From positions 1 to 27,030 of the IMG/VR virus record IMGVR_UViG_3300025141_000609: DNA of 27,030 nt; one strand, written 5' to 3'. How positions within the stretch are numbered: position 1 is the first letter of the stretch; every line of letters begins with the position of its first letter. This document shows positions 1,635 through 27,030 of this stretch, piece after piece. Below the pieces are notes generated by a model. It worked only from the letters and a program-made list of their open reading frames with translations, was not told where the DNA came from and did no database searches. Source of the stretch: a virus. The translations under genes and the position numbers were made by a program.

Positions 1635-3749
1635 TTAATCGTTAATTAACGATACAGCAATCTGAGTTGCAAATGCTCCTAACTGTCCGAACATAGCATC
1701 TTCCGCTGCTTGATTGTACTGTTCAACTTGAAAATTTTGCTGTTGTGCTAAGATAGCAGCTTGATGTGCTCTAGCCGCATTACTCTCGGTAATTTGAATT
1801 AAAAAATGAGCATCATCTCGATAAGCTTGCCACAGATTAGCTTGTGCCATTTCGGTCATACCAAGTACAGCCTGGGCATTTATTTGATTAGCTTGATTCT
1901 GTGCGGCTGTATTTGCAGTATTTATATTTCTCCGCCATGTTGAATTAGACTGTGCTATTTGAGCAGATAGATTAGCATTAAATTTATCTCTATCGTTTTG
2001 TATCTGATTATTAAATTTATCCATCGCATTTACCTGATCAACATTAAACTGTTCATTAGCAACAGCTAATTCTGTATTTCTTGTATCTACCTGCACTCCC
2101 AACTGTGCAAAAAATTGATCTACCTGGGCTTGGCCGGTTGCATTGAATTGATTAATAGCATTTTCAGCCGCCTGATCTGTGAACATTTCTTGCATATTAG
2201 CGTTAAAATTAATAACTTCGGTAGCTTGTTCATTAGATAGGTTAGCCATATCTATCTGCAAGAAGTTTAAAGAATTTTGTATAGCTGCTTTTGTTTTAGC
2301 ATCTGCATTACGCATGTCCATCGCAGCATAGGTAGCGGCATTTTGTAAAGCGGTCTGTTGTTTATTATTTAAATTTTGCAGTTGAATAGTGGCATATTTC
2401 TGTGCATCTGCAGCAGCGATTGGAATAGCACTTTCCTGTACAGCCTGTACAAATGCTGCTCCTGCCATCGTACTCGCACCTAAACCTCTCTGTTGCATTA
2501 TCTGTGAAGCAGCCCGTACAGGACCGGAAGCCCAGGGAGGTAGTGGGCCTCCTTCTGTAATAGAAGTGTACAACTGTTCTAGCTGCCCTTGAACCGTAGC
2601 TTTCGGGTCTAGTTCTTCAGTTTGTGCCTCTGCTATAGAATTAGCACTTACAACTCCTAATACATCAGCATAATCTATACTTACTTCATCGGATATTTCA
2701 CCATCTTCTAAAATAGCTGCCTTTGCATCTTCTACTTCATTTCTTTTTGCCGCTACTACCGTATCAAATTCTTGTTTTTCAGCATGTGATATTTTACTAG
2801 GATCTTTAGCGTGAGAAGCTGAAATTGATTGTAAATCTGATAGAGATTGATCTTCTACAAGCTCCCCCGGTTGAAGTTCCATTTTTTCTGGGATATAAGT
2901 ACCGCCAACGGGTAGTTGTGTTACAGGATTGCCCTGTTCGTCTAAAACAGGATTGCCTTCTTCATCCAATACCCCCTGGCCCATTGCTAGACCTGTCATT
3001 ACATCTATAATAGGCCGATTACGTTCTTCAATAGTCAATTGTTTTTCGGGTACTTCTTCAATTCCATGAGGAAATTTATCCGCTAAATGAGCTTTAAATT
3101 CATCGAATGCCTGTTGTGTAGGAAATATACCATATGATGTTTTCACAGGTTCTGAAGAATCAGTAACTTCAGGAAGCTTGAATAATTCTCTTAGTTCATT
3201 TGGAGTATAAGTATTATCTCCATATGTGTACATGTTAGTTTTAGAATCGTACTTGGGAAGTTGTCCCTGTTCAAACTCAAAAGTAGCCAGACCTTGTGTA
3301 ATATCGTCCTGTTCTTTTCCTAGAGCACCTTCAGAAAATTTAAATTGCCCGTGTGCTTCTGTTAGAAAATCAGTACTAAATTTTTGCTCTGCAATGTCAG
3401 GAGGTGTTGCAGGTTCTTGCCCGATAGTACCTACTTCCGGCCCGGATGCAGCCTGAAATCCCTCGCCCAATTCAGGAAGTGGATCTTGTTCGATCTTAAA
3501 CTCTGCTTCAGGGGGAGTTGTTATTTGAGGTTGTTGCGGTTCTTCCTGCTGTTGTTGCTGTTCCTGCTGTTGTTGCTGTTGCTGCTGTTGTTGCTGTTGT
3601 TGCTGAAATCTATTAAAAGCAGCTTGTGCGTCAGCCTCGTTCAGATACGTTTGATTATTAAATATAAAACGATCTCCAGCCTGAGTTTGATGTTTTTGAA
3701 CACCGCCCCCCGATTGATAATTCCGATCAGGTCTAAAATTTATAGCCAT
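1635..3749 (-). CDS. Large Gln-rich internal-virion/ejection-type protein (704 aa)
   Basis: Residues 1-30 carry NYQSGGGVQKH (10-20). A 14-residue poly-Gln tract (49-62) and a second QQQQQEE run follow. Residues 75-390 are acidic and disordered-looking, with EEGNPVLDEQGNPV repeats near 265-280. From about 400 the protein is long, helical and rich in Ala/Gln/Asn, with IMQQRGLGASTMAGAAF near 420 and many FN-spaced heptad-like segments (QFNVDQVNAMDKFNNQIQ). I recognise the RGLG.S.MA.AA..QA..E.A.PIA..DA segment from marine phage virion proteins. The long Ala/Gln helices resemble podovirus ejection proteins. The enzymatic role, if any, is not visible. It is the first gene after the 242-base gap, and its ribosome site (AGGGAA) is modest. 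Confidence 0.75.
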   Translation of the reverse strand: MAINFRPDRNYQSGGGVQKHQTQAGDRFIFNNQTYLNEADAQAAFNRFQQQQQQQQQQQQQQEQQQQQEEPQQPQITTPPEAEFKIEQDPLPELGEGFQAASGPEVGTIGQEPATPPDIAEQKFSTDFLTEAHGQFKFSEGALGKEQDDITQGLATFEFEQGQLPKYDSKTNMYTYGDNTYTPNELRELFKLPEVTDSSEPVKTSYGIFPTQQAFDEFKAHLADKFPHGIEEVPEKQLTIEERNRPIIDVMTGLAMGQGVLDEEGNPVLDEQGNPVTQLPVGGTYIPEKMELQPGELVEDQSLSDLQSISASHAKDPSKISHAEKQEFDTVVAAKRNEVEDAKAAILEDGEISDEVSIDYADVLGVVSANSIAEAQTEELDPKATVQGQLEQLYTSITEGGPLPPWASGPVRAASQIMQQRGLGASTMAGAAFVQAVQESAIPIAAADAQKYATIQLQNLNNKQQTALQNAATYAAMDMRNADAKTKAAIQNSLNFLQIDMANLSNEQATEVINFNANMQEMFTDQAAENAINQFNATGQAQVDQFFAQLGVQVDTRNTELAVANEQFNVDQVNAMDKFNNQIQNDRDKFNANLSAQIAQSNSTWRRNINTANTAAQNQANQINAQAVLGMTEMAQANLWQAYRDDAHFLIQITESNAARAHQAAILAQQQNFQVEQYNQAAEDAMFGQLGAFATQIAVSLIND
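3540..3605 (-). repeat. Poly-Gln trinucleotide repeat (CAG/CAA)
   Basis: This is a run of CAG and CAA codons encoding 14 Gln, Glu, 5 Gln, then Glu-Glu in the 704-residue protein (residues 49-70). Within it an 18-base unit, CAGCAACAACAGCAGGAA, occurs twice in direct tandem. That suggests growth by slippage or unequal exchange. Confidence 0.9.
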
Positions 3750-3780
3750 CAGTTATATTCCCTATTTATATTTTTATTTT

Positions 3781-3886
3781 TTATAATGGTTTATATCCAT
3801 TATCAGCCATCCAAGTTCTGATATCTTCATTACTGTAAACACCATCTGATTACCCCTGGATAAAAAATAAGTTTTTCTAAAGGCAT
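3781..3886 (-). pseudogene. Broken or frameshifted small gene (about 34 codons)
   Basis: ATG at 3886-3884 has a good ribosome site (GAAGAGGTGTAAATG) and encodes MPLEKLIFYPGV, then runs out of frame to a stop at 3830. A different frame, with no start of its own, continues from 3846 as DGVYSNEDIRTWMADNGYKPL and stops at 3781. Joining them needs removal of one base near GTAATCAGAT (about 3846-3853). Dropping one A, for example, gives a continuous 34-residue protein. The second half has protein-like composition, and the two halves sit directly end to end. It may be a decayed gene, a sequencing or assembly indel, or a +1 frameshift site. A stand-alone reading of 18 codons (3830-3886) is also possible. 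Confidence 0.4.
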
Positions 3887-3991
3887 TTACACCTCTTCCC
3901 AAGTTTAAATATTAATTTTTGCAACATTTACCAACCAATGCTTAATGACCGTTAAGGCGATTTCTCAAAGAATCCATAACACAGATATATT

Positions 3992-4624
3992 CTACTTAAA
4001 AGGAGGCCCTACAAACCATACTACCAATGAATGTCTAATTCCCTTTGTTACAGGTGTAACTCTATGTTCCATATCAGAAGGGAACACAACAATTGATCCT
4101 ATTTTATTAAATTCTGGTACACTAATTTCACATTTTTCTTTATTATAAGTAGCAAACTGAAACTCTCCTCCCTCATAATTATCATTCAAAAGAACAGTCA
4201 TTGATAATTTTCTAACATTACCGTGCATAAATTTTTTGTCTGGCATGTCATATGCAGATAAATGATCCCCCCTACCGTCTTTATGAAAGCAATAGAACCC
4301 GCCCTTTTTATAGCGGGTTATTTGCATACCCTCTGCACCTGTAATATCATATTTCCAACCAGCCCGTTTATTTGCCCCCTCCATCCACGGCCAAACCGTA
4401 TCATATATCCATTGATCAGTTGTCCACGCAACGTCACTTCTTCTTAAATTTGCATCTATGCGTTGAATTTGTTTTCTTCCAGTTATTCGTTCTTCTTCTG
4501 TAATACCCTTTTTAGTATCTACTGCTGATTGTACCCAATCACCCCTCGCCACATTTTTTATTTTATTACAGGTTTTTTTGTCTAGACCTTCTGTGAAATA
4601 AAACCATTCATTTGTATTAAACAT
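3992..4624 (-). CDS. 2-oxoglutarate/Fe(II)-dependent oxygenase, prolyl-4-hydroxylase-like (210 aa)
   Basis: The Fe(II)-binding facial triad is visible: H114 and D116 in FHKDGRGD, and H187 in PSDMEHRVTPV. R197 (KGIRHSLVVWF) is placed to bind the 2-oxoglutarate C5 carboxylate. The core ends GSIVVFPSDMEHRV, typical of the double-stranded beta-helix fold, and 210 residues fits a stand-alone P4H-like domain. Such enzymes couple oxygen and 2-oxoglutarate to hydroxylation of a protein side chain or another substrate, in the cytoplasm. Marine phages often carry one near the tail-fibre genes. The substrate cannot be read from sequence; a fibre, adhesin or host protein is possible. Its start overlaps the preceding gene by 8 bases, so it is translated with the fibre locus. 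No transcription terminator is obvious after it, only a weak CTTAA/TTAAG stem near 3940-3956. Confidence 0.88.
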   Translation of the reverse strand: MFNTNEWFYFTEGLDKKTCNKIKNVARGDWVQSAVDTKKGITEEERITGRKQIQRIDANLRRSDVAWTTDQWIYDTVWPWMEGANKRAGWKYDITGAEGMQITRYKKGGFYCFHKDGRGDHLSAYDMPDKKFMHGNVRKLSMTVLLNDNYEGGEFQFATYNKEKCEISVPEFNKIGSIVVFPSDMEHRVTPVTKGIRHSLVVWFVGPPFK

Positions 4625-4952
4625 CCATCGCCAACCATTTTAGGTTAGCCTCGTCCCACAAATAATCTGGACTATCCGTGGGCCTTGGTGTTGGTGGTTG
4701 CCAAATGTATGCATCGTCGAGCGACCAAGATGGGTAAGGCTGCGGAGCGTAGAATGCGTCGGCATCGGCGTCATAAGTATAACCTATTCCAGCATAGTTG
4801 TACCGAATGTTATTATTATATGAAGTCTGTTTCCAGATACCTCCCCCAGTGAAGTTTCGGCACCAGTTTTCACCGTCAGCTTCATGCTCGTCAGCAACGA
4901 CTATCACTCGGAGTACGATATTATTTTCGTCAAGTTCTGCAAAATGTGCCAC
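4617..4952 (-). CDS. Fibre-locus protein, marine phage family (111 aa)
   Basis: The start is GTG, not ATG, with AGAGGT just upstream (AGAGGTTAAAGTG); this site overlaps the stop of the Gly-rich adhesin gene. The sequence opens MAHFAELDENNIVLRVIVV. It then has a Cys/Gly segment (NWCRNFTGGGIWKQTSYN, about 29-46), an aromatic NYAGIGYTYDADADAF stretch (about 52-67) and a Pro/Trp-rich end. I recognise this as a family repeatedly found next to tail-fibre genes in marine myo- and podophages. Its function is not established to my knowledge. A fibre-tip accessory protein or a fibre assembly chaperone is a reasonable inference from position. GC content is higher here (about 50-57% in sampled lines) than in the oxygenase gene next door. 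Confidence 0.75.
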   Translation of the reverse strand: MAHFAELDENNIVLRVIVVADEHEADGENWCRNFTGGGIWKQTSYNNNIRYNYAGIGYTYDADADAFYAPQPYPSWSLDDAYIWQPPTPRPTDSPDYLWDEANLKWLAMDV

Positions 4953-11474: not shown

Positions 11475-11831
11475 TTACAAGATAGGTGTATATAATTCTT
11501 CTATAAATACGGACACATAAAAAGCATCAGCAGTAGCAGCCTGGGCTTTTAGAACATCCGTTGCGTCTAAAAAAACATTTAAATTGTCCAGCCGTAAATA
11601 ATCATCCGTAGCTACTTGCTTATCGTGTATAAGACTATAGGTAGCAGTAGCAGATGTATCTGTCCATTGAATATTTAAATTCCTAGCACTACTATCATAG
11701 TTAGCTATGAACATCTCTCGAACTATAGATGTAGTTTTAGCCGGTACTGTATAAACAGTAGTTAAATCTGTACTGGTTAAATTTACAGCAGCATTAACTA
11801 GTCTAACAGATCTTTGTAAAGTACCAGCCAT
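11475..11831 (-). CDS. Small beta-rich connector or head-completion protein (118 aa)
   Basis: It is mostly beta strands (LTTVYTVPAKTTSIVREMFIANY, LNIQWTDTSATATYSLIHD) with a short helical break (LDATDVLKAQA) and no catalytic motif. I recall comparable 110-120 residue proteins beside adaptor genes in marine phages. A role in the neck, or on the capsid surface, is inferred from position between the protease and the gp11-like adaptor. The ATG overlaps the protease stop as TAATG, so expression should follow the protease. It ends nine bases before the adaptor gene. Confidence 0.65.
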   Translation of the reverse strand: MAGTLQRSVRLVNAAVNLTSTDLTTVYTVPAKTTSIVREMFIANYDSSARNLNIQWTDTSATATYSLIHDKQVATDDYLRLDNLNVFLDATDVLKAQAATADAFYVSVFIEELYTPIL

Positions 11832-12664
11832 TATTCCATTTCTTCTATCTCAGGTTCATCCCCAAGAATATAGCCATAATTATTATCTCTCAGAAATATT
11901 CTAATTTCAGAGATTGGCCTAGCCCAACCCATATGTGTTATGACTGAACCCCAACCATACGCCGACACCATACTTGGAACACCAATTAGTTCATAGACTC
12001 TACGAGGACTGTATACATACAAAGATCCTCCTGAATTTCCAAAAATAATGGGGCTACTTGCTAAATACAAGTCATTACCATGCGTATCTTTGCCATACCC
12101 CGACAATAAGCCCATAGTTGGAAAAGGGGGCTTACCTAAACCTGCACCTACAGCATATACCGTAGAGAAGATCCACGGCCCTTCATCCTTATCTTCAGGG
12201 TACAATGTAGCAACATAGGGCATTTTACGCTCGGTATCTTCTACCTGCAATAAAGCTAAATCTCTACCTTTATCATAAGCTACGATATTAGCAATCCTAC
12301 CGATAGTACCTACAGCAGTGCTAAAATTATTATATTCCCACAGGTCTATATTTACAGGACGCCTAGTTTCTGTTTCAACATGTTCTTTTTGCTCAGGGTT
12401 CCAAACTTTATTTAACTTAACATAATTTTGAACTACATGCCAGTTGGTTAGAATGTAACTTTCATATTCCTGATTTTCATTTAGATCTGAGTAAATTACG
12501 GTTCCAGAACCTGTGCCGTTTCCTACTCTCACAAGAACAGTAGGATAGAGCATTTCCATATGCTCCTGTTCAGGAACTGTACCACTTTTATTCGGATTAG
12601 CAAGAGCTAGAGTCGAGCCGAGTGTGATAGATACAGACAGTAAAATAGCAGCAAGCAATTTCAT
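11831..12664 (-). CDS. Secreted trypsin-like serine protease (277 aa)
   Basis: A signal peptide is clear: MKLLAA, a hydrophobic core, and ALA at 20-22 as the likely signal peptidase I site. The mature part has the chymotrypsin/HtrA catalytic triad H76 (LTNWHVV), D135 (DKGRDLALLQV) and S211 (FGNSGGSLY). GTGSGTVI (about 50-57) lies before the His as in DegP-type domains. There is no PDZ domain, and the C-terminus is an acidic tail (GDEPEIEEME). It should act in the periplasm or outside, unless the signal is not used. It starts with AAGGAG four bases after the Hsp20 gene and is coupled by TAATG to the next gene. A secreted protease amid capsid and tail genes is odd. It could help lysis, modify the host surface, or process virion proteins. 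The family call is firm; the role is not. Confidence 0.88.
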   Translation of the reverse strand: MKLLAAILLSVSITLGSTLALANPNKSGTVPEQEHMEMLYPTVLVRVGNGTGSGTVIYSDLNENQEYESYILTNWHVVQNYVKLNKVWNPEQKEHVETETRRPVNIDLWEYNNFSTAVGTIGRIANIVAYDKGRDLALLQVEDTERKMPYVATLYPEDKDEGPWIFSTVYAVGAGLGKPPFPTMGLLSGYGKDTHGNDLYLASSPIIFGNSGGSLYVYSPRRVYELIGVPSMVSAYGWGSVITHMGWARPISEIRIFLRDNNYGYILGDEPEIEEME

Positions 12665-12668
12665 TTTT

Positions 12669-13064
12669 CTACTCCTTCTTAATTGTAATTATTTTTTCTT
12701 TCTCTTCTTCTGGAATAACCTTTTCCAAGTCTATTTCCAGCAACCCATCTTTTAGTTTGGCGTTTACAATATTCATGTTAGGGGCTAGACAGAAATCTTT
12801 ACGAAAATTTCTAGTAGCAATTCCTTTCCATGTATAATCACAATCTTTCTTTTCTTGTTTATTAGCACAGATACTGAGAGTATTTTTTTGTGTGCTAATT
12901 GTTAAATCATCAGATGAAAATCCTGCGACAGCCATTGATAATTTATATTTATTATCCCCCTGTATTTCTACATTGTACGGGGGATAAGTAGTTTTGTTTA
13001 CAGTTGTAAACATCTGATCGAACATACGATCAAAACCAATGAACATTTTGCTTAAATCATTCAT
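12669..13064 (-). CDS. Small heat-shock protein, Hsp20/alpha-crystallin family (131 aa)
   Basis: The alpha-crystallin domain spans about residues 27-118: PPYNVEIQGDNKYKLSMAVAGFSSDDLTIS, then GIATRNFRKDFCLAP. It ends with the signature A-x-x-x-x-G-L as NAKLKDGLLEIDL (101-113). A C-terminal ITI (126-128) fits the I-x-I anchor used for oligomer assembly. The length is close to that of IbpA-type proteins, with a short N-terminal arm containing FDRMFDQMF. It holds unfolding proteins without ATP, in the cytoplasm. Cyanophages and other marine phages carry Hsp20 genes, usually linked to capsid or scaffold genes. Here it sits just after head genes and before the protease. The ribosome site is strong (TTAGGAGGATACTATG). 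Confidence 0.92.
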   Translation of the reverse strand: MNDLSKMFIGFDRMFDQMFTTVNKTTYPPYNVEIQGDNKYKLSMAVAGFSSDDLTISTQKNTLSICANKQEKKDCDYTWKGIATRNFRKDFCLAPNMNIVNAKLKDGLLEIDLEKVIPEEEKEKIITIKKE

Positions 13065-14262: not shown

Positions 14263-15162
14263 TCAATCAATTAGAATGTGTTCAACGATCAAACCTTTTG
14301 ACCGAATAACTTTACGCCCAAAGACATGCAATCCACGCACGATATCCGCAAAGGAATCAGGATCACGAACTACTTCAGTCTTAGCAATATGATTGGCTGT
14401 AGCAACAGCAGACATATGGCCTGACATAATCTTATAGTAGTTAGAAGTCGATGAGGCGGCAAAATTGTTAGTCATATAGCAAGAAAACCCTTGGATTTTA
14501 CCTGCAAAGATTTTACCGTTACGCAAAGGTGAATTAGCATCTCCAGTTACAGAAGCATCCATCAACTTGCTGGAAGTCTGTGCAGCCTGCTCCCAGAATT
14601 GGGGAGGGGCCAGGAACCACCGATTCTCCTCTGGCACATCGTTTGAGTTTAGACGCCTAGCATGATTAGCTAGAACATTAATTGGGTCAACTTCACCGGA
14701 AGCGAAACCAACATCCTGTCCCGAACCGTCAGAACCTACCGTAGTTCCCGCACCGGAAACCATAGCAGCAATGACATTCGTGTCGAACTCATTCTTCAGC
14801 GCATAAGCACCAGAACTCGTTGCGAGAGCTTCCCAGTTAACGTGGCTTTGACGTTCTTCAATGTCATCTACTTTAAAAGCAAACGCATTGCCTTGGTCAA
14901 CTACCAGAGTTAGCTGGTCGTCTTGCAACTCTTGTGGGCTTAGAACTGAACCACGAGCATAGGACGAGACAGTAATAGTTGGCTCTTTGATGATTTTAAC
15001 CGTATCACCAAAATTCTCAATCTCTCCTGCATAGTCGGTATTTGTGATATCCTCAACAACCGAGGCTGTGCGGAAGAATTTAAGAACTTTTTGGCTATAA
15101 ATAGCAGGTGCCCAGTTTCCATTAGGAAGACTAGAGTACCCACCAGCAGCAGAAAAAGCCAT
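14263..15162 (-). CDS. Major capsid protein, HK97-like fold expected (299 aa)
   Basis: It lies directly after the scaffold gene with a strong ribosome site (TAGGAGGAATAAGTTATG). The sequence has features of marine podovirus capsid proteins. An N-arm carries AIYSQKVLKFFRTASVVEDITNTDY (18-44). An extended loop region contains GDTVKIIKEPTITVSSYARG. A long helical segment covers about 100-145. An axial-domain-like part has RWFLAPPQFWEQAAQ, and the C-terminus reads VFGRKVIRSKGLIVEHILID. At 299 residues it matches compact HK97-fold capsid proteins with no N-terminal protease-cleaved domain, consistent with a separate scaffold gene. GC and codon use look more even here than in fibre genes, as expected for a highly expressed gene. 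Other head genes around it support the call. Confidence 0.85.
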   Translation of the reverse strand: MAFSAAGGYSSLPNGNWAPAIYSQKVLKFFRTASVVEDITNTDYAGEIENFGDTVKIIKEPTITVSSYARGSVLSPQELQDDQLTLVVDQGNAFAFKVDDIEERQSHVNWEALATSSGAYALKNEFDTNVIAAMVSGAGTTVGSDGSGQDVGFASGEVDPINVLANHARRLNSNDVPEENRWFLAPPQFWEQAAQTSSKLMDASVTGDANSPLRNGKIFAGKIQGFSCYMTNNFAASSTSNYYKIMSGHMSAVATANHIAKTEVVRDPDSFADIVRGLHVFGRKVIRSKGLIVEHILID

Positions 15163-15178
15163 AACTTATTCCTCCTAG

Positions 15179-16009
15179 TTAGGGTTCAAGTCTACCCTCT
15201 CGCCTAGCTTGATCTATATCCTTTTCGTACTTCTCGAACTCCCAAGGTTTCATCTTTTCTATTTCAGAAATAGTCCAGATTTTCTTATCTCCCTTGGTTT
15301 GTACAGTTCGTTTCTGTGTCTTGGTTACAGATTCAGCAGCCTTTGAGGGTCTACCTTTAGTTTTTTTCTGAACAGTACCACTGTCAGCTTTGTAAAGATC
15401 AATTACACGAGCGGCCCATTTAAAATCAGTACCGTTTTTTAGCACACCATCAGCAATACTTTCGGGCTGATCCTTTAGCCATTCCGCAAATACTTCATCC
15501 GATTTCAATTCTGGAAAATCAGGATGTAAAGAAAGTAATTCCTGCTCCGCTGTTCTTTGTATAGCTTCTTGTTCCTGTTCTTTTAGAACTTGAAGCCGTT
15601 CTTCGATATTTTGAACTCTAGAATCAGCATTCTGCATTGAGATCGTTTCAACTATATCATAGACATCTGGATAATTTTGCTTGAACTGTTCTAACTCCTC
15701 TGCAGTCTTAGACACTTGTACATTTTCAGGACTATTTGCCTTTAGTTGTGCAGTTAAAGTTTCCTGTTCTTGCTTCCACTCATTTAACTTTCTATCGTAA
15801 TGAGATTTTAAATCATCGTATCTTTTTTTATAGTCGTGATCCGGCTTACTTTTCTGGTCTAAAAACCCTTCTTGTTGAGGAGTGGCCTCTTGTACAGAGG
15901 TGTCCTCAGATTCAGGGTCTGGATCGTCTAAGTGCCTTTTGTATTCCCCCTGGTATGGGGTAGGCTCGTTAACTTCACTTTCTTCTACTTCGGTAATATT
16001 GTCAGTCAT
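15179..16009 (-). CDS. Capsid assembly scaffolding protein (276 aa)
   Basis: It is a highly charged, mostly helical protein. Residues 1-50 are acidic (TEVEESEVNEP...DDPDPESEDT). Residues 58-165 are Lys/Glu/Gln coiled coil (KKRYDDLKSHYDRKLNEWKQ, then VQNIEERLQVLKEQEQEAIQR). A compact region (LHPDFPELKSDEVFAEWL, 171-188) follows. The basic C-terminus ends IWTISEIEKMKPWEFEKYEKD, then ARREGRLEP, matching the conserved capsid-binding tail of phage scaffolds (EI..M....E......A..EGR). No protease motif is visible, so it probably exits or is degraded intact. It has a consensus ribosome site AAAGGAGGTAACTATG and a structured leader upstream (16027-16094). Confidence 0.85.
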   Translation of the reverse strand: MTDNITEVEESEVNEPTPYQGEYKRHLDDPDPESEDTSVQEATPQQEGFLDQKSKPDHDYKKRYDDLKSHYDRKLNEWKQEQETLTAQLKANSPENVQVSKTAEELEQFKQNYPDVYDIVETISMQNADSRVQNIEERLQVLKEQEQEAIQRTAEQELLSLHPDFPELKSDEVFAEWLKDQPESIADGVLKNGTDFKWAARVIDLYKADSGTVQKKTKGRPSKAAESVTKTQKRTVQTKGDKKIWTISEIEKMKPWEFEKYEKDIDQARREGRLEP

Positions 16010-16060: not shown

Positions 16061-16094
16061 AGGACGGGGCCGCTATTTAGCAGGTGGCCGTCCT
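16061..16094 (-). other. GC-rich stem-loop between the lysozyme-bearing gene and the scaffold
   Basis: AGGACGG (minus strand, starting within the stop codon of the 822-residue gene) pairs with CCGTCCT, seven base pairs. An inner GCTA/TAGC pair (16072-16081) sits in the loop. No U tract follows, so an RNA processing or stability element is more likely than a terminator. It stands out because the flanking genes are AT-rich. Confidence 0.5.
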
Positions 16095-18561
16095 AATTAT
16101 AAAATGTTTCCTTAAACTTATTATATTCTTCTACATCTTGTGCATCTGGGGGTAGTGTAATATCCGTAGGTGGATATACATCAGATCCGCCAGAACTTAT
16201 AAAAGGTCTTTTCTTTATTTTAGGTTTAGAAGAATCTTCTGGAATGTCTAGTAAATTTACAGGTTCTTCTACAAATCCTCTATTTGAAAGATATTCAGGG
16301 GCGGGTTCAGTAGGAACGGCATTAATTGTAGGTTCTTCTACAAATCCTCTATTTGAAAGATATTCAGGTGCAGCCCTTAAAGATTTTTTTAATCTTTCTG
16401 CTACTCTTTCTGCTCTTTCTTTAGTTTGCTCATGCCACTTAGAATCTAAAGCTTCCTCATATGCTTTTTCACTATCTCCTACAGCTATAGCTGCTAACAT
16501 ATTTTTAAAACCACGAACTCCTGTACCTTTTTTATAATTTGGCTGATCTTTTTTGCCTATGGGGTCTTTACCTTCGCCCATTTGATATACCATTTCAGCA
16601 ATAGGTAGTACAGCATTATGAGTATCTGAACCTAGTATTTTTTTAGCGGATTTAACAGCTTGCTTCCAGCGTTTAATTGCTTCTTTATCTACTTCTTGTA
16701 TACTTTTTCTATCTCCTACTTTAGCATTTTTATAATCTCTAACACCAGGGCCAAAAGTTATAAATCCTCTAGTATCTTCGTAAGCTATATATTCCTTATT
16801 TTCTTCATCATATTTTTTTGGATCATCTTTTTCAGATTCACTAAATTCTTCAGGTCTTACAGTAGTCTCAAAATACTCTTCTACCGCACCCCCTTCTGCA
16901 TATCCCCGCTTATCAAGCTGTTCTACAAAGGGCTTGCCAGCATCATTAATACGATTAAGGTTATCATACCCTATCCTTTCCGCATCTGGTTTAGATACTT
17001 TAAATTCACCGTTTGATACATTTATTCCCTGTGGGTCTACAGAAGATTTTGTATTTTTAGCCGTGCTAGTATTGTTAGTCATTGCATTTAGTTTATTCTG
17101 GCCTATCATCTGTGTAGCCGGGGCGTTTACAATGAAAGACCCTGGTTCTGCTTTCATTGGAATACTATCACTTACTGGAGAGCCTGGACCTTGAATAAAT
17201 CCCGATTGATTTATTTGAGGGACTTGTCCTCCTGCTTGCATATCTCTTTCTGCACTACGTTCAAACTGTATCATATCTAGATCTATGATTTTATGTAATT
17301 CTATTTCTGCTTGTCTTGCTTTATCTCTACTTTCATAGGATGGAAAATTATCTAGTCCAATTTTTTTAGCACGTTCTAAAGCATCATTAAAACTTAAAAT
17401 CGTTTTAGACTCTGAATCGTACCCAGGAATCATATATGTTCTACCATCCTGTGCTTCAAATGTTATACTATACAAAGTTGTAATAGTACCATCTTCATTC
17501 TGTAAAAATTTATTATTAAATAAATTGTCTCTATGATACTCCAGTAAATTTTTTTCTTTTTCATTAGGTACAAACATGGGTGTATCTCCCAATGTTCTTA
17601 CACCTTCTTGTAAATCTAACTTTACCCTAGGATCACTTAATTCTTCAATTGCAACTTCTTGCGTAGGATCTTCAAGTCTTACATATGGTTCCCCCCTATT
17701 GATAGGAGTGGGTCCAGCATCAGATCTAGGTGGAGGAGTCCATCCCGGGTCTGTTTTAAGTCTTTCTCGCATAAAATCTTCTGCTTTTTGTAAAGTATCG
17801 GGTGTAGCAGGTGGTGCAATAGCACGGGCATCATACGGTTCATAGACCGACAATTTTCTAGATCCATGTCCTACGGGATCTGTTTTATATGCTAAAGGCA
17901 TCTGTCCTCTAGGAGTTCCCATAGAAGTTACAGGATCTCCTTTTGCTAAAGGCGTTTTTCCTCTAGGAGTTCCCATAGAAGTTACAGGATCTCCTTTTGC
18001 TAAAGGCGTTTTTCCTCTAGGAGTTCCCATAGAAGTTACAGGATCTCCTTTTGCTAAAGGCATCTGTCCGCTTGCATCTCCCATAGAAGTCAAATAATTT
18101 TCCGTGCGAGTTCTAGATGGTCCCTGTTCAAAATCTCTGTTTTCTCCCTGCCTCTGTTGTCTAAGAAGTTCTATAGTTCTTCGATCATCCGACTCCGGTT
18201 CTGGAGTAACGGGGTATTGTGATAGATACACAGAGTTTAAAATAGCAGACCTGTTCTTCCAATTTCTCTTTCGGCCTAACTGCGCCGCTTGCCGGGGGTC
18301 ACTAGCCATAGCCTGTTCGTAAGGTTTAATAATACCCAAAGCGGTGTCGAACTGGTCCATGTTACTAATATAATGCTGATTAGTATCGTTTAGATCTACC
18401 GCCCCGAGAAAATGGCCCTTCTTACTTCGTACTATCTTTACATTCGACCCTTGCCTAGCTTGCATGTTTTGGATTATTTGTCTTGCATTTTCATCGGGGG
18501 ATTCTACAGTTATCTTACCGCCTGATTGTAGGGTATTCATTTGTTTTGTTAAATTTGGCAC
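16093..18561 (-). CDS. Large virion-type protein with embedded T4-like lysozyme (GH24) domain (822 aa)
   Basis: The start is GTG, supported by AGGAAA about ten bases upstream; the next ATG, seven codons in, has no ribosome site. Residues 169-222 are three 18-residue repeats. At 453-490 lies SGFIQGPGSPVSDSIPMKAE, a segment common in marine phage structural proteins, and 512-560 has NVSNGEFKVSKPD and RGYAEGGAV. Residues 562-725 resemble T4 lysozyme. E587, D596 (YEDTRGF) and T602 (FITFGPG) have the same 9- and 6-residue spacing as E11, D20 and T26 of T4. VYQMGEG, FKNMLAAIAVGD and SKWHEQTKERAERVAERL match the rest of the GH24 domain. It should cleave peptidoglycan, probably from within the particle at DNA entry, though a lysis endolysin cannot be excluded. 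The C-terminus has two APEYLSNRGFVEEP repeats (731-767). Confidence 0.82.
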   Translation of the reverse strand: MPNLTKQMNTLQSGGKITVESPDENARQIIQNMQARQGSNVKIVRSKKGHFLGAVDLNDTNQHYISNMDQFDTALGIIKPYEQAMASDPRQAAQLGRKRNWKNRSAILNSVYLSQYPVTPEPESDDRRTIELLRQQRQGENRDFEQGPSRTRTENYLTSMGDASGQMPLAKGDPVTSMGTPRGKTPLAKGDPVTSMGTPRGKTPLAKGDPVTSMGTPRGQMPLAYKTDPVGHGSRKLSVYEPYDARAIAPPATPDTLQKAEDFMRERLKTDPGWTPPPRSDAGPTPINRGEPYVRLEDPTQEVAIEELSDPRVKLDLQEGVRTLGDTPMFVPNEKEKNLLEYHRDNLFNNKFLQNEDGTITTLYSITFEAQDGRTYMIPGYDSESKTILSFNDALERAKKIGLDNFPSYESRDKARQAEIELHKIIDLDMIQFERSAERDMQAGGQVPQINQSGFIQGPGSPVSDSIPMKAEPGSFIVNAPATQMIGQNKLNAMTNNTSTAKNTKSSVDPQGINVSNGEFKVSKPDAERIGYDNLNRINDAGKPFVEQLDKRGYAEGGAVEEYFETTVRPEEFSESEKDDPKKYDEENKEYIAYEDTRGFITFGPGVRDYKNAKVGDRKSIQEVDKEAIKRWKQAVKSAKKILGSDTHNAVLPIAEMVYQMGEGKDPIGKKDQPNYKKGTGVRGFKNMLAAIAVGDSEKAYEEALDSKWHEQTKERAERVAERLKKSLRAAPEYLSNRGFVEEPTINAVPTEPAPEYLSNRGFVEEPVNLLDIPEDSSKPKIKKRPFISSGGSDVYPPTDITLPPDAQDVEEYNKFKETFYN
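16261..16371 (-). repeat. Two copies of a 14-codon repeat at the C-terminus of the lysozyme-bearing protein
   Basis: APEYLSNRGFVEEP is encoded at 16330-16371 and again at 16261-16302, with nearly identical DNA, separated by nine residues. It lies directly after the lysozyme domain. Confidence 0.9.
17896..18057 (-). repeat. Three tandem 54-bp repeats in the lysozyme-bearing gene
   Basis: Each unit encodes LAKGDPVTSMGTPRGKTP; the last ends GQMP. The DNA is almost identical between units, so expansion is recent. A degenerate fourth unit (LTSMGDASGQMP) precedes them at about 18058-18093. These are coding repeats, not a CRISPR array. Confidence 0.92.
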
Positions 18562-23397: not shown

Positions 23398-25038
23398 TTA
23401 ATATCCAAACACTGCATCTGCCATTTCCATAGGTTTATCTTTTATCCTACGAGAGAAGCTTTCGAGGTTATAGTTCAATCTCCGCATCATCACCATGTAT
23501 CTAAGAGCATCATACGCATGATCCTCCGCTTTCGTATCTACATCCTCCGAGTTAGTCTTTGACAGAGGTAAGGTAGGTAAAGTTCTTATCAAGTTCGTAC
23601 AGGTAGAAACTACTCTTAGCCTGGGCTGTCCGGTTAGATCGTCCATTTTTAATCTACGATGTACTTCGATCTTACCCGCCATTCTATTTGAATCTGAAGG
23701 AACCCACCTAACTCCCCGATTCATCATCGTTTCTGCTATACTCGGTCCTAGACCCGTTCTAGACCAGCAAGATTTATCTAGCACAGATATCTGCATCGGA
23801 GGATCTTGAGCTTCTAGCTGTACAATCAGATCTGCTAGATCCTCTCCGGTCAGACCTTTCTTGTACAATTCCCGATAGACCCAAATATTACTGTCCCAAT
23901 CTATCGCTGCCCAGAGAACACAAGAGGGAGAACTGAATCCATAATCCGCTGCTCTTATTCTCGGCCAGTTCGTAGGTACTTCAAAAGGTTCTACAACGTG
24001 TAGAGATCTATCGAACTCAGAGAAAGCAGCACCCTCTGCTACGTCCCAATCACCTTCTAGTAACCTTCTCCGTTCTACCTCGGGAAGAGAGAGCAACATC
24101 GCTTCGTACTCTCCCGAGTGCATCAAGTACGGATTATCTGTCAATCTAGCAGGAATGAACTTCCGCTGGAACAAAGGTTCATTTGCTCTAGAGTGAGAAG
24201 GTCCGTATTTTAAAGTTTTACCAGTATCTATATCGGTAGCCCAAAAGGGTTCATTTGGTATCGCAGGGTCGATGAACATCTTCTTTATCCACCAACCGCC
24301 CATTCCTCCAGGGTTAGCACTCGCTCTCATGTAAGTTTCTATCTCTGGATCTGTAGTTCTAAGCCTCGATCTGAGATAGTTCCATACATACGGAGAGGGA
24401 TAATGACCGAGTTCATCTATACCTATCCAGGTGAAACTCTGCCCCTGGTATCTCGTAACGTCCGAATCTTTATCTACATAGGAGAAAGTAGCTGTAGCCC
24501 CGGAAGGAAACGACCAAGTAGATTTAGATTCTTTGAACTTAGCGCCTGGAAAGGCTTTCGGGTAGATCTTTCTAGACTGGTCTATAAGCTCGGTCAGTTC
24601 GCCCAGAGTACGCCTGAGTAGTAAAGCACGGTGATTGCCATTAGCAGCGAACCTAAGAAGATCAACCAACATTGCATATGATTTACCTCCTCCTGCTGCT
24701 CCTCCGTACAGAACTTCCTTTTCAGGGGCTGCTAGAAAATCATCCTGAGGCCCCGGATTAGGCTTAAAAACTACTTCCGTTCCCTCTTTTATAGCATCTT
24801 TTACCGCTTTAGGTACTTGATCTAGTAGTTCTTCCGTAGCTACCCCGCCCTTTTCTAGAATGTTCAGGGCTTGTTTAGCACTTTTAGTACCAGCAGAGAG
24901 CTTTTCTACCCGCTTTTTCTGCTGTTTTAACCGCTTTTCCTTCGCTGAAACCTTTTTTCTAGCCTCTCTTCGGAGGTATTCTTTTGTAGATAAGCGGTAG
25001 TTGCCCTTTTCTCCCTCTGCTAGTTTGGGTCTAGCCAT
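23398..25038 (-). CDS. terL: Terminase large subunit (546 aa)
   Basis: It is the motor and nuclease that packages DNA through the portal. Walker A is YGGAAGGGKS (111-120), Walker B is WIGIDEL (204-210), and the coupling motif is in MRASANPGG (237-245). The nuclease domain begins with RAADYGF (D365) and has VYRELY (E389 to L391 region). EDHAYDALRYMVM near the end carries the last acidic residues of an RNase H-like site. Residues 1-95 form an unusual basic, Lys/Arg-rich helical extension (LRREARKKVSAKEKRLKQQKKRVEKL) before the ATPase. This may bind DNA or the small subunit. The ATG overlaps the upstream stop as TAATG. Confidence 0.96.
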   Translation of the reverse strand: MARPKLAEGEKGNYRLSTKEYLRREARKKVSAKEKRLKQQKKRVEKLSAGTKSAKQALNILEKGGVATEELLDQVPKAVKDAIKEGTEVVFKPNPGPQDDFLAAPEKEVLYGGAAGGGKSYAMLVDLLRFAANGNHRALLLRRTLGELTELIDQSRKIYPKAFPGAKFKESKSTWSFPSGATATFSYVDKDSDVTRYQGQSFTWIGIDELGHYPSPYVWNYLRSRLRTTDPEIETYMRASANPGGMGGWWIKKMFIDPAIPNEPFWATDIDTGKTLKYGPSHSRANEPLFQRKFIPARLTDNPYLMHSGEYEAMLLSLPEVERRRLLEGDWDVAEGAAFSEFDRSLHVVEPFEVPTNWPRIRAADYGFSSPSCVLWAAIDWDSNIWVYRELYKKGLTGEDLADLIVQLEAQDPPMQISVLDKSCWSRTGLGPSIAETMMNRGVRWVPSDSNRMAGKIEVHRRLKMDDLTGQPRLRVVSTCTNLIRTLPTLPLSKTNSEDVDTKAEDHAYDALRYMVMMRRLNYNLESFSRRIKDKPMEMADAVFGY

Positions 25039-25769
25039 TAGTATTTAGCAGTCCTTACTGAACAGCCCTTTGCATATTTTTTATTTTTGCTTTTCTTTCT
25101 TTTTTTTGTCACTTTTCCACCTTTACTTAGTGGTAAAGTATATCCTAATCTTGCTCGTTGTTCATCCAGGTTACCACGCACCTCTCCAGAAAGGGTGCCT
25201 CCAAAAAGAGGAGCTTCTGCCCCGATACGAGCTTGGTCTAAAGAAAGAGTTCCGTTTCTTAAACTTGTTTCTACCTCTCCTCTAATAGCCGATCCTTTTA
25301 TACCAAAAGGATCTTCAATTTTACCAGAAATATTAGATCTGTATATATTATCTGCAGTATTTACATGCCCCCCTGCATCTACTGTAACTCCACCCCGATC
25401 TACCAGTCGTGTAGTAGGAATTTCTATTTCTTTATCCCTGGCTAGTTTAGCAGCACCTGCTATTATACCGTATATTCTTTTCGTAGATTTTTCAGATAAT
25501 CCAAACTGTTCGCCAAAATCTTCAGCGATTTCCCTGCCGAAATTTTTTACGTTAGCCTTTCTAGTTAAATAGTCTTGATAAGGTTCGTCTTTTCTCCTAA
25601 CCCCTACTCTAACAAGTGGTAGCCACAGTTCTTTTAAGTACTTTACAGCAATTTTTTCTGCACCATCAGGGTTATTCACAAACTCTGGTGTACTCATAAG
25701 AACATCAGTAATAATACGATGTAACGATTTATTACGTTCTTTTATTCTTTTTGTTGTTGTATCAGCCAT
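25038..25769 (-). CDS. Hypothetical protein with beta-strand repeats and basic C-terminal tail (243 aa)
   Basis: Residues 1-120 are helical (KSLHRIITDVLMSTPEF, FGREIAEDFGEQFGLSEKSTKRIYGIIAGAA). Residues 130-220 have alternating hydrophobic and polar strands with short Gly turns (SAIRGEVETSLRNGTLSLDQ, ARIGAEAPLFGGTLSGEV, ARLGYTLPLSKGG), reminiscent of beta-barrel or beta-helix sequence. The end is very basic (KKRKKSKNKK) and finishes KYAKGCSVRTAKY, a tail shared with two neighbouring small proteins. Its gene lies between the two terminase genes, overlapping TerS by 8 bases and TerL by TAATG. I do not recognise the family with a function. A packaging cofactor or membrane-associated protein are possibilities. 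Confidence 0.65.
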   Translation of the reverse strand: MADTTTKRIKERNKSLHRIITDVLMSTPEFVNNPDGAEKIAVKYLKELWLPLVRVGVRRKDEPYQDYLTRKANVKNFGREIAEDFGEQFGLSEKSTKRIYGIIAGAAKLARDKEIEIPTTRLVDRGGVTVDAGGHVNTADNIYRSNISGKIEDPFGIKGSAIRGEVETSLRNGTLSLDQARIGAEAPLFGGTLSGEVRGNLDEQRARLGYTLPLSKGGKVTKKRKKSKNKKYAKGCSVRTAKY

Positions 25770-26166
25770 CCGGTGTTATATCCTTCATCTGCTTCTTAGC
25801 AGGAAGCATAACCACCCCATGAATAACCTCCGCTTGAATAGCGATATCCTGCTTCTTACCTATACCTACACGGTCTAGAATTTCATTCGCCGCTTTTAAG
25901 CGTATTTCCATATGGCTAGACCGAATATCCCCGTTCATATCCAAACCTTCCATCAGGCGGTTAGCAGCCTTTACACTGGAAGAAGCGAGCATGGACTTGG
26001 TACGATCTATGATCTCGTCCTTTAAGGTACGCACGAGCCAGGACCGTGAACTCGGCTTGTAACCAGCCTCGTCCATCGCTGCTAGAACCTGTCCTCCGTT
26101 GGACATGAGAATATTTAGAAACTTGACCTGTTTCTCTGTGTACTCTTTTTTAGCTGGTAAACTCAT
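25762..26166 (-). CDS. terS: Terminase small subunit (134 aa)
   Basis: It starts MSLPAKKEYTEKQVKFLNILMSNGGQ. A helix-turn-helix-like segment follows (VLAAMDEAGYKPSSRSWLVRTLKDEI, about 28-53). Then come helices that could form the oligomerisation core (SSVKAANRLMEGLDMNGDIRSSHMEIRLKAANEILDRVGI), and a beta C-terminus (IAIQAEVIHGVVMLP). This is the layout of TerS proteins, which bind the packaging site as rings and hand DNA to TerL. Size and the position upstream of terL support it. Its ATG shares the A of the preceding TAA stop, and its end overlaps the next gene by 8 bases. Confidence 0.82.
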   Translation of the reverse strand: MSLPAKKEYTEKQVKFLNILMSNGGQVLAAMDEAGYKPSSRSWLVRTLKDEIIDRTKSMLASSSVKAANRLMEGLDMNGDIRSSHMEIRLKAANEILDRVGIGKKQDIAIQAEVIHGVVMLPAKKQMKDITPDG

Positions 26167-26345
26167 TAACTTCTTACTAGCCTCGTACCGCCCCCGTTGG
26201 CGTATGTTTTAGGGTTTGTAATTACTATACCGGATAGATGGTCTAGATCTCGTATATTATTAAGTCCTTCAACTAATTCAGGTTTACCTGTAGTTCTAGC
26301 GATACGGTTTTTTTCTTGCTGCAATTTACTTGTTCTTTTTAGCAT
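26166..26345 (-). CDS. Small protein ending in GGGTRLVRS (59 aa)
   Basis: This short gene starts ATGCTAAAAAGAACAAG and encodes MLKRTSKLQQEKNRIARTTG, then PELVEGLNNIRDLDHLSGIV and a C-terminus KTYANGGGTRLVRS. The start lies inside the end of the upstream 48-residue gene (20-base overlap), and its stop makes TAATG with terS. The ribosome site is within an A-rich stretch and weak, so translation is probably coupled. The sequence has a helical basic first half and a C-terminal tail alignable with those of two neighbouring genes. The function is unknown. Confidence 0.6.
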   Translation of the reverse strand: MLKRTSKLQQEKNRIARTTGKPELVEGLNNIRDLDHLSGIVITNPKTYANGGGTRLVRS

Positions 26346-26472
26346 ATTTAATCATTCTCAACCGTTTTATCATTTTTTTAGCATTTTCTACAGTTTTAGC
26401 CGTGGCTTTTTTTATCCACTTTCCTTTAGAATTTTTACTATAAATGACCTTGCCTACACGTTTGTACGGCAT
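26326..26472 (-). CDS. Small basic phage protein (48 aa)
   Basis: It encodes MPYKRVGKVIYSKNSKGKW, then IKKATAKTVENAKKMIKRLRMIKYAKKNK. The layout is two short beta strands and a basic helix. I recall related short proteins (MPYKxVGK...GKW...A.K...NAKK.I.LLR) in marine phages, where no function is assigned. With about one residue in three Lys or Arg, it may bind nucleic acid. The ATG follows AAAGAAGA, and it overlaps the Cys-rich peptide gene by 19 bases and the next gene by 20 bases. It was too short for routine calling, but the family resemblance supports it. Confidence 0.65.
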   Translation of the reverse strand: MPYKRVGKVIYSKNSKGKWIKKATAKTVENAKKMIKRLRMIKYAKKNK

Positions 26473-26540
26473 TCTTCTTTTTTAGGGCATTTACAAGGAT
26501 CGCACTTGCAATTTTCACATTTACATTCCTGGCAACTCAT
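26454..26540 (-). CDS. Cys-rich metallothionein-like micro-peptide (28 aa)
   Basis: The 28-residue product has eight cysteines at 3, 6, 8, 11, 13, 16, 18 and 24, spaced C-x2-C-x-C-x2-C-x-C-x2-C-x-C. The other residues are mainly Lys, Glu, Asn and Asp (ECKCENCKCDPCKC). Alternating CxC and CxxC is the hallmark of metallothioneins, which bind zinc, copper or cadmium through thiolate clusters. There are no aromatic residues and one Arg, also as in metallothioneins. The ribosome site AAGGGGATAG lies just before the ATG, two bases after the upstream stop. It ends inside the start of the 48-residue gene. Possible roles are metal storage, zinc supply or redox control; all are inference. Confidence 0.7.
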   Translation of the reverse strand: MSCQECKCENCKCDPCKCPKKEECRTNV

Positions 26541-26542
26541 TA

Positions 26543-26764
26543 CTATCCCCTTCTATTGTATTTATCATGCCAAAATTTACTAGCTTCTCTTAACTGTGAA
26601 TTTATAGTTCTAACGAGTTCTAGCTCTTCTTTTACTATATTTGTATATCCTGTACGGATCTCTTCATTATCCTCTGTTGAAATATTTTCTAGCAGTTCGA
26701 TCATCCTATCTATATGATCACAAGAGTCTGGGGGTATGTTAGGTTTCTCGAACTTTCTAGCCAT
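26543..26764 (-). CDS. Small helical protein (73 aa)
   Basis: It begins MARKFEKPNIPPDSCDHIDRMIELLENI and continues with a Glu-rich helix (EELELVRTINSQLREASKFWHDKY). The pattern C-D-H-I-D-R followed by a long amphipathic helix containing N-x-x-L-R looks like small marine phage proteins of unknown role. A coiled-coil dimer is likely. It starts one base after the preceding stop and ends two bases before the Cys-rich peptide ATG, as expected in this tightly packed cluster. No catalytic or metal site is apparent beyond the lone C-x-H. Confidence 0.65.
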   Translation of the reverse strand: MARKFEKPNIPPDSCDHIDRMIELLENISTEDNEEIRTGYTNIVKEELELVRTINSQLREASKFWHDKYNRRG

Positions 26765-26765
26765 T

Positions 26766-27030
26766 CTAGTACTTAGCGGCTCTTACTCCTCCGCCCCGTG
26801 AGTAGTTTTTCTTTATTGTATTTTTTCTCTTTTTAATTCTACCGCCCTTTTTAATATCCTCAAAGCCTAAAGGATCTCCCATTCCAAGCCCGTAATAAGG
26901 ATTTTCCATTCCTCGACCGTGCCTATACAGTGGATTACCCCTCTCATCATACGGACCTCTGCGTAGTAACTCCATTCTTGATATTGTTTTTGGTTTTTTC
27001 TTTGGTTTTCCTGGGTAATCTGGAGTAGCA
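26766..27030 (-). CDS. Basic Gly-rich small protein, C-terminal part (start beyond right edge)
   Basis: The internal ATG at 26975 (MELLRRGPYDERGNPLYRHG) has no good ribosome site. The frame stays open upstream to the window edge (PDYPGKPKKKPKTISR before that Met), so the true start is probably outside the window. The protein is basic and rich in Gly, Tyr and Arg. A KKGGRIKKRK segment is followed by the C-terminal tail KKNYSRGGGVRAAKY, which matches the ends of two other proteins in this cluster. Disorder and nucleic-acid or membrane binding are plausible. The function is not known. Confidence 0.6.
   Translation of the reverse strand, partial: ATPDYPGKPKKKPKTISRMELLRRGPYDERGNPLYRHGRGMENPYYGLGMGDPLGFEDIKKGGRIKKRKNTIKKNYSRGGGVRAAKY

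Follow-up and report, generated by a model that had tools for sequence, protein, structure and literature searches.

The scaffolding protein of phage P22 docks onto the P22-type coat through a basic C-terminal segment, a folded helix-turn-helix found on one protein, and many encapsulin targeting peptides lie at the C-terminus of the cargo. Encapsulin cargo-loading peptides are short and bind the interior of an HK97-fold shell (PMC10960027, PMC8346489, PMC11202242). The internal proteins of phage T4 are small and basic, with poorly conserved bodies and a common N-terminal head-targeting sequence (CTS) of 10–19 residues, and the CTS has been suggested to be an evolutionary device for loading diverse proteins (PMC9026906). 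Here, we analyze a 27-kb viral record (IMG/VR IMGVR_UViG_3300025141_000609, positions 1 to 27,030; referred to as the window), in which three otherwise dissimilar proteins end in a common 14-residue peptide, the tag. Judged by its terminase large subunit (TerL), portal and coat sequences, the window is placed in the HMO-2011 group of marine podoviruses. We propose, giving it about an even chance, that the tail is a portable C-terminal address peptide, which would load accessory proteins into the procapsid or virion.

The shared C-terminal end exceeds chance

Gapless shared tails are present, as the sequence-only reading of this DNA had described, at the exact C-termini of three minus-strand open reading frames (ORFs) upstream of TerL (Table 1). 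Its pattern K-x-Y-[AS]-x-G-[GC]-x-[VT]-R-x-[AV]-[KR] matches only these three sites among the 29 window genes considered. End-anchored BLOSUM62 scores of the three tail pairs are 43, 35 and 22, and the next best score among all window gene pairs is 13. In 2,000 shuffles of the window genes, the best shuffled pair had a median score of 13 and a maximum of 27.

A direct search of viral contigs confirmed no relatives of the 243-aa tagged protein, because its body evolves too fast, so relatives were found through TerL. The resulting set comprises 81 loci, the window and 80 relatives chosen by TerL similarity alone and independently of the tag. Locus counts include near-duplicate contigs except where called non-redundant, and genes in metagenomic contigs were called by simple ORF rules. 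By a motif-free comparison of the last 20 residues of all same-strand gene pairs within each locus, 41 of 2,466 pairs reached a BLOSUM score of at least 35. Control windows (residues −40 to −20, −60 to −40, and the N-terminus) gave one pair each, the one listed for −60 to −40 being a paralogue pair in L068, and shuffled tails gave none. A looser core motif, located 10–19 residues before the stop, occurs in 51 non-redundant ORFs of the TerL-picked relatives against 0.09 expected from shuffles. The observation of the earlier reading is confirmed and lies far outside chance.

We also scanned databases for K[KN]YAxGGxV[RS] at the DNA level, using a degenerate pattern. IMG/VR gave more than 100 hits, most within about 32 residues of a stop, whereas 257 Gb of bacterial and archaeal genomes (GTDB) gave 48; among the latter, the largest group that could be recognised belongs to a single unrelated protein family. 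None of these 48 hits is a tag-like protein end, so the tag is a feature of viruses. A prophage or host origin was considered and rejected on the same scan, and the tag-bearing viruses are apparently lytic. The tags are rich in lysine and glycine, as a chance or compositional artefact of Lys/Gly-rich phage proteins would have it; this explanation is refuted by the shuffles, by the internal-window and N-terminal controls, and by the 48 non-tag cellular hits set against more than 100 in IMG/VR.

Of the 43 loci that reach 1.9 kb or more upstream of TerL, 31 carry a tag, and 23 of these carry at least two. When 16 whole contigs were surveyed, 15 proved to contain tags, which usually form one small cluster or a few.

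Tagged proteins have unrelated, basic bodies

After removal of the tail, 138 tagged ORFs, of which at most two or three are spurious, form 100 body clusters. When 91 representatives of these clusters are aligned, only GGxVKKYAxGGxVRK is retained, at the C-terminus. The doublet GGxVKKYAxGGxVR across these unrelated proteins has the same arrangement as KKGGRIKK followed by tag 1, and a KGG[KR][VI] element precedes two of the three window tails. Pfam and PHROG scans of the 91 proteins gave scattered single matches, mostly of unknown function, with no function in common, and tagged ORFs 1 and 2 of the window had no match in the PHROG search. A comparison of concatenated tagged bodies with isolates returned one weak body match.

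In one tagged group (L114, 11663-12481, minus strand; L163, 2029-2856, plus strand; L131; L185), we noticed by eye a JAMM-like H-T-H-P...S-x-x-D sequence, which would make a tagged protein a possible enzyme. Neither Pfam nor the AlphaFold model of L163, with a mean predicted local distance difference test (pLDDT) of 38, confirms this identity.

Compared with neighbouring proteins, the tagged bodies are more basic (p=2e-4), and the tag itself has a mean net charge of +3.8 over 14 residues. Such charges could suit a generic nucleic-acid-binding tail, that is, a basic peptide bearing glycine and tyrosine, which would bind DNA or RNA and hold these proteins on the phage genome. However, unspecific binding needs neither an exact version per clade nor a fixed distance to the stop nor an aromatic-GG-V core, and we regard this explanation as rather improbable.

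Each virus lineage keeps its own version of the peptide

We distinguished six tag types among the TerL-picked loci; versions include VRxA[NKS]Y, VR[AK]A[RK]F, YAYGGRVA and YSRGSRKA. When mapped onto a maximum-likelihood tree of TerL, every type falls in a single clade of its own, and the type changes 5 times, the fewest that six types allow, whereas shuffled labels average 24.7 changes. Because each version maps to exactly one TerL clade, the tag is a property of the virus lineage rather than of the protein that carries it. The mean tag score is 56.8 between unrelated proteins of one locus and about 30 between viruses whose TerL proteins are less than 80% identical. One version per lineage is the pattern expected if a single partner, changing with the lineage, reads all tags of one virus, although part of the likeness within a lineage would also stem from common descent of its tags. 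A shared binding partner for the tags is likely on these sequence comparisons.

The tags could also be recent copies, a 3' DNA cassette spread by recombination as a homology handle for exchange and having no protein function of its own. Fast gene turnover and the near-identical codons of some pairs (16 of 17 in L061, 15 of 17 in L037) speak for such copying. At identical tag residues of pairs in one locus, codons agree in 329 of 571 cases, where codon usage predicts 236; many pairs lie near that expectation, and the clear recent copies are few. Codon choice in matching tags is thus largely randomised, which argues for selection on the peptide itself. Between orthologous tagged proteins of viruses with TerL about 90% identical, the body is 46% identical with a ratio of nonsynonymous to synonymous substitution (dN/dS) of 0.66, a rough value as poorly aligned regions inflate both rates, whereas the final 14 codons show 77% identity and a dN/dS of 0.14. 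Untagged neighbours show the reverse, with an identity of 0.76 in the body and 0.69 in the last 14 residues. With most pairs near the random codon expectation and a tag dN/dS of 0.14, recent copying is improbable as an explanation and strongly disfavoured as the sole cause, though it could have an additional role.

The window proteins follow suit. The body of the 243-aa protein is 33–44% identical to its window-clade homologues, whose TerL is about 88–90% identical to that of the window, and the tag is conserved. Orthologues of tag 2 read KTYANGGGTRLVKS in L003 and KSYARGGSVRPVNS in L006 and L010.

The terminal residues vary between lineages (Y, F, S, G, N, K, V), and the internal Y-A-x-GG-x-V core is kept. 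This distribution bears on a further explanation, a C-terminal degron for a host protease such as ClpXP (compare SsrA and the RRKKAI end of MuA), which would make the proteins short-lived. The C-terminal position and the basic residues near the end fit a degron. Degrons, however, are read mainly at the last residues, which here differ widely while an internal core persists, and the explanation is very improbable.

Taken together, the position at the C-terminus, the roughly 100 unrelated bodies, the purifying selection on the peptide and the single type per clade strongly support the idea that the tail is a tag.

Tagged genes lie upstream of TerL and turn over quickly

All 81 tagged genes with a determined TerL position lie upstream of TerL, within 4.3 kb and on the TerL strand. 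None was found downstream, despite more downstream than upstream sequence examined. In relatives with TerL 80–97% identical, a homologue was found in 32 of 354 comparisons of tagged genes (9%); for untagged genes from this region, the figure is 523 of 987 (53%, a value lowered by some false ORFs in the set).

In 18 of the 81 cases, the tagged gene directly adjoins TerL. This proximity would suit a docking peptide for a phage hub outside the virion, for example TerL itself or a replication or transcription complex, and all the evidence for a shared lineage-specific partner applies equally to such a hub. The site on the late strand among packaging genes and the hypervariable basic cargo suit virion loading better, but they are not decisive. 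We consider a hub of this kind unlikely, and still the main rival to virion loading.

A possible route into the particle

We favor a C-terminal virion-loading tag because the short peptide, the hypervariable basic bodies and the genes in the packaging region match the logic of the T4 internal proteins. Accessory late genes clustered upstream of TerL encode small, mostly basic proteins with fast-changing and mutually unrelated bodies, and every one of these proteins ends in the peptide version typical of its virus lineage. One lineage-conserved phage component would bind the peptide. It would most likely belong to the procapsid, as its coat, scaffold, portal or core, and any protein with such an end would be loaded into or onto the assembling particle. 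The cargo would then probably be delivered to the host at infection and serve host take-over or counter-defence.

Among the roles suggested by the sequence-only reading, assembly, in the sense of virion loading, appears to fit best, and DNA binding is possible, though it leaves the lineage-specific identity and the strict C-terminal position unexplained. Membrane binding is unlikely because the tag is basic and rich in glycine, and because a transmembrane-like stretch occurs in only 2 of 85 tagged proteins. Processing is unsupported: the three window tags contain no T4-type [IL]-x-E cleavage sequence, and the window proteins scanned include no known prohead protease.

On the other hand, several observations weigh against virion loading. 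Of the 43 terminase-selected loci that offer 1.9 kb or more upstream, twelve are without a tag. The distant 243-aa orthologues L036, L037 and L038 end after a conserved KGGKVKKRxKRKKK element, the counterpart of the SKGGKVTKK that precedes tag 3, and have no terminal tag, while other proteins of that lineage carry one; four other tagged proteins lie beside the tagless orthologue in L037. The exact tag was found in no isolate, in a short-query tblastn that was possibly masked as low-complexity. We found no virion proteomics, binding or packaging data for any tagged protein. The AlphaFold models of the 243-aa protein and of the L163 protein are too poor for a fold search.

More tentatively, and somewhat short of an even chance, lytic podoviruses of the sea and probably elsewhere may possess a general C-terminal address system, in which a conserved particle component reads a per-lineage peptide. 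Under such a system, a fast-changing arsenal of small proteins would be recruited by gaining the peptide at their ends, and many tag dialects would exist, including the long RGKTRG-type form and the FFKH form of phage phiM6 described below.

Most phage genes have neither a known function nor relatives. If virion loading is true, the tag is a portable signal for bringing proteins into phage particles, and it lists likely virion-borne accessory proteins of abundant uncultured ocean viruses straight from sequence. Candidates for injected effectors of host take-over and counter-defence could then be identified in viral metagenomes by the tag alone. The question raised is what reads the tag, and why each lineage retains its own version.

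Other dialects of the C-terminal peptide

In Sinorhizobium phage phiM6, three of the four small proteins between TerL/phoH and the portal gene end in DF[PK]FFKHxxKxK. We know of no earlier description of this shared tail, and a literature search for a described shared C-terminal phage tag found none. In a Rhizobium phage relative, one gene at the matching place encodes VPFFKHKE close to its C-terminus. These two phages suggest that the sharing of C-terminal peptides at this locus extends beyond the GGxV sequence. As a cultured, terrestrial member of the HMO-2011 group (PMC6256558), phiM6 is a usable laboratory system for shared C-terminal peptides.

A second, long tag form, KKYASGGSVSSASKRADGIAQRGKTRGRIV (25–31 aa), stands at the end of unrelated proteins in other viral contigs, some of which carry two such proteins (L087, L098, L107, L109, L118, L126, L135, L147, L160, L197 and L201).

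Features of the window

The window TerL is 49–55% identical to those of HMO-2011-type phages (Pelagibacter, Roseobacter and Puniceispirillum phages). The untagged 134-aa ORF agrees with the annotated small terminases of CRP-603, CRP-2 and HTVC115P in position, size and end sequence. The tagged genes flank this small-terminase position and adjoin TerL on the late-gene strand. AlphaFold gave the 243-aa protein a mean pLDDT of 46, with a low-confidence helical N-terminal half, a beta C-terminal half and a disordered tail.

Table 1. Positions of the tags, tagged ORFs and neighbouring features (window coordinates, except for the last row)
Feature	Position	Strand	Basis or remark
Tag 1: KNYSRGGGVRAAKY	26769..26810	-	C-terminus of 87+ aa ORF
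Tagged ORF 1, 87 aa visible, 5' end cut by window edge	26766..27029	-	ORF call
KKGGRIKK, weaker GGxV element upstream of tag 1	26829..26852	-	sequence
Tag 2: KTYANGGGTRLVRS	26169..26210	-	C-terminus of 59-aa ORF
Tagged ORF 2, 59 aa	26166..26345	-	ORF call
Untagged 134-aa ORF, small-terminase position	25762..26166	-	likeness to annotated small terminases
Tag 3: KKYAKGCSVRTAKY	25041..25082	-	C-terminus of 243-aa ORF
Tagged ORF 3, 243 aa, directly upstream of TerL	25038..25769	-	ORF call
SKGGKVTKK element upstream of tag 3	25101..25127	-	sequence
TerL, locus landmark	23398..25038	-	phrog_979 E=1.8e-60
Scaffold candidate, untagged	15179-16009		
Major head protein	14263-15162		phrog_267 E=3.6e-60; sub-threshold Pfam P22_CoatProtein match
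Trypsin-like serine protease	11831-12664	-	Trypsin_2, E=5e-13; signal-peptide-like N-terminus
phiM6 gp4, gp5, gp7 (L205)	3671-3952, 3949-4296, 4569-4913		mutually unrelated, common C-terminal DF[PK]FFKH

We notice some further features of the window. The trypsin-like protease in the structural region is unusual for a podovirus. The same region holds an HSP20 small heat-shock protein (12669-13064), present in HTVC103P too, and a 2OG-Fe(II) oxygenase (3992-4624) on the minus strand. Two large virion-protein candidates (16093-18561 and 1635-3749, minus strand) contain a single internal YxxGGxV, in the forms KRGYAEGGAV and NYQSGGGVQ; the latter gene encodes a 704-aa protein with a long poly-glutamine run close to its N-terminus.

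Comparison with known systems

Like the T4 CTS, which is carried by IPI, IPII, IPIII and Alt, the tag is a short peptide common to several otherwise unrelated proteins, whose bodies are small, basic and poorly conserved among close relatives. The CTS is N-terminal, whereas the tag is C-terminal and N-terminal windows show no sharing. The CTS is cut at a defined site by the prohead protease gp21, and the tag has no [IL]-x-E type site. For these two reasons, we do not class the tag as a CTS. The two sequences are unrelated, and the tag occurs in podoviruses with a P22-type coat.

SsrA/MuA-type degrons have conserved residues at the extreme C-terminus, in contrast to the varied last residues of the tag.

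Encapsulin peptides resemble the tag in being short and C-terminal on the cargo. A cognate HK97-fold shell is probably at hand, as the window encodes a major head protein whose families point to this fold. An encapsulin, a compartment of the cell, usually holds one dedicated enzyme as its cargo, while the tag appears on many unrelated predicted bodies per virus, and we know of no sequence likeness between the peptides.

The P22 scaffolding protein likewise has a basic C-terminal end in a phage with a P22-type coat; it differs in that the scaffold candidate of the window is untagged. The tail of phiM6 gp4, gp5 and gp7 has another sequence, with no GGxV core, and it is like the tag in that three unrelated small proteins of an HMO-2011 relative carry a common C-terminal peptide.

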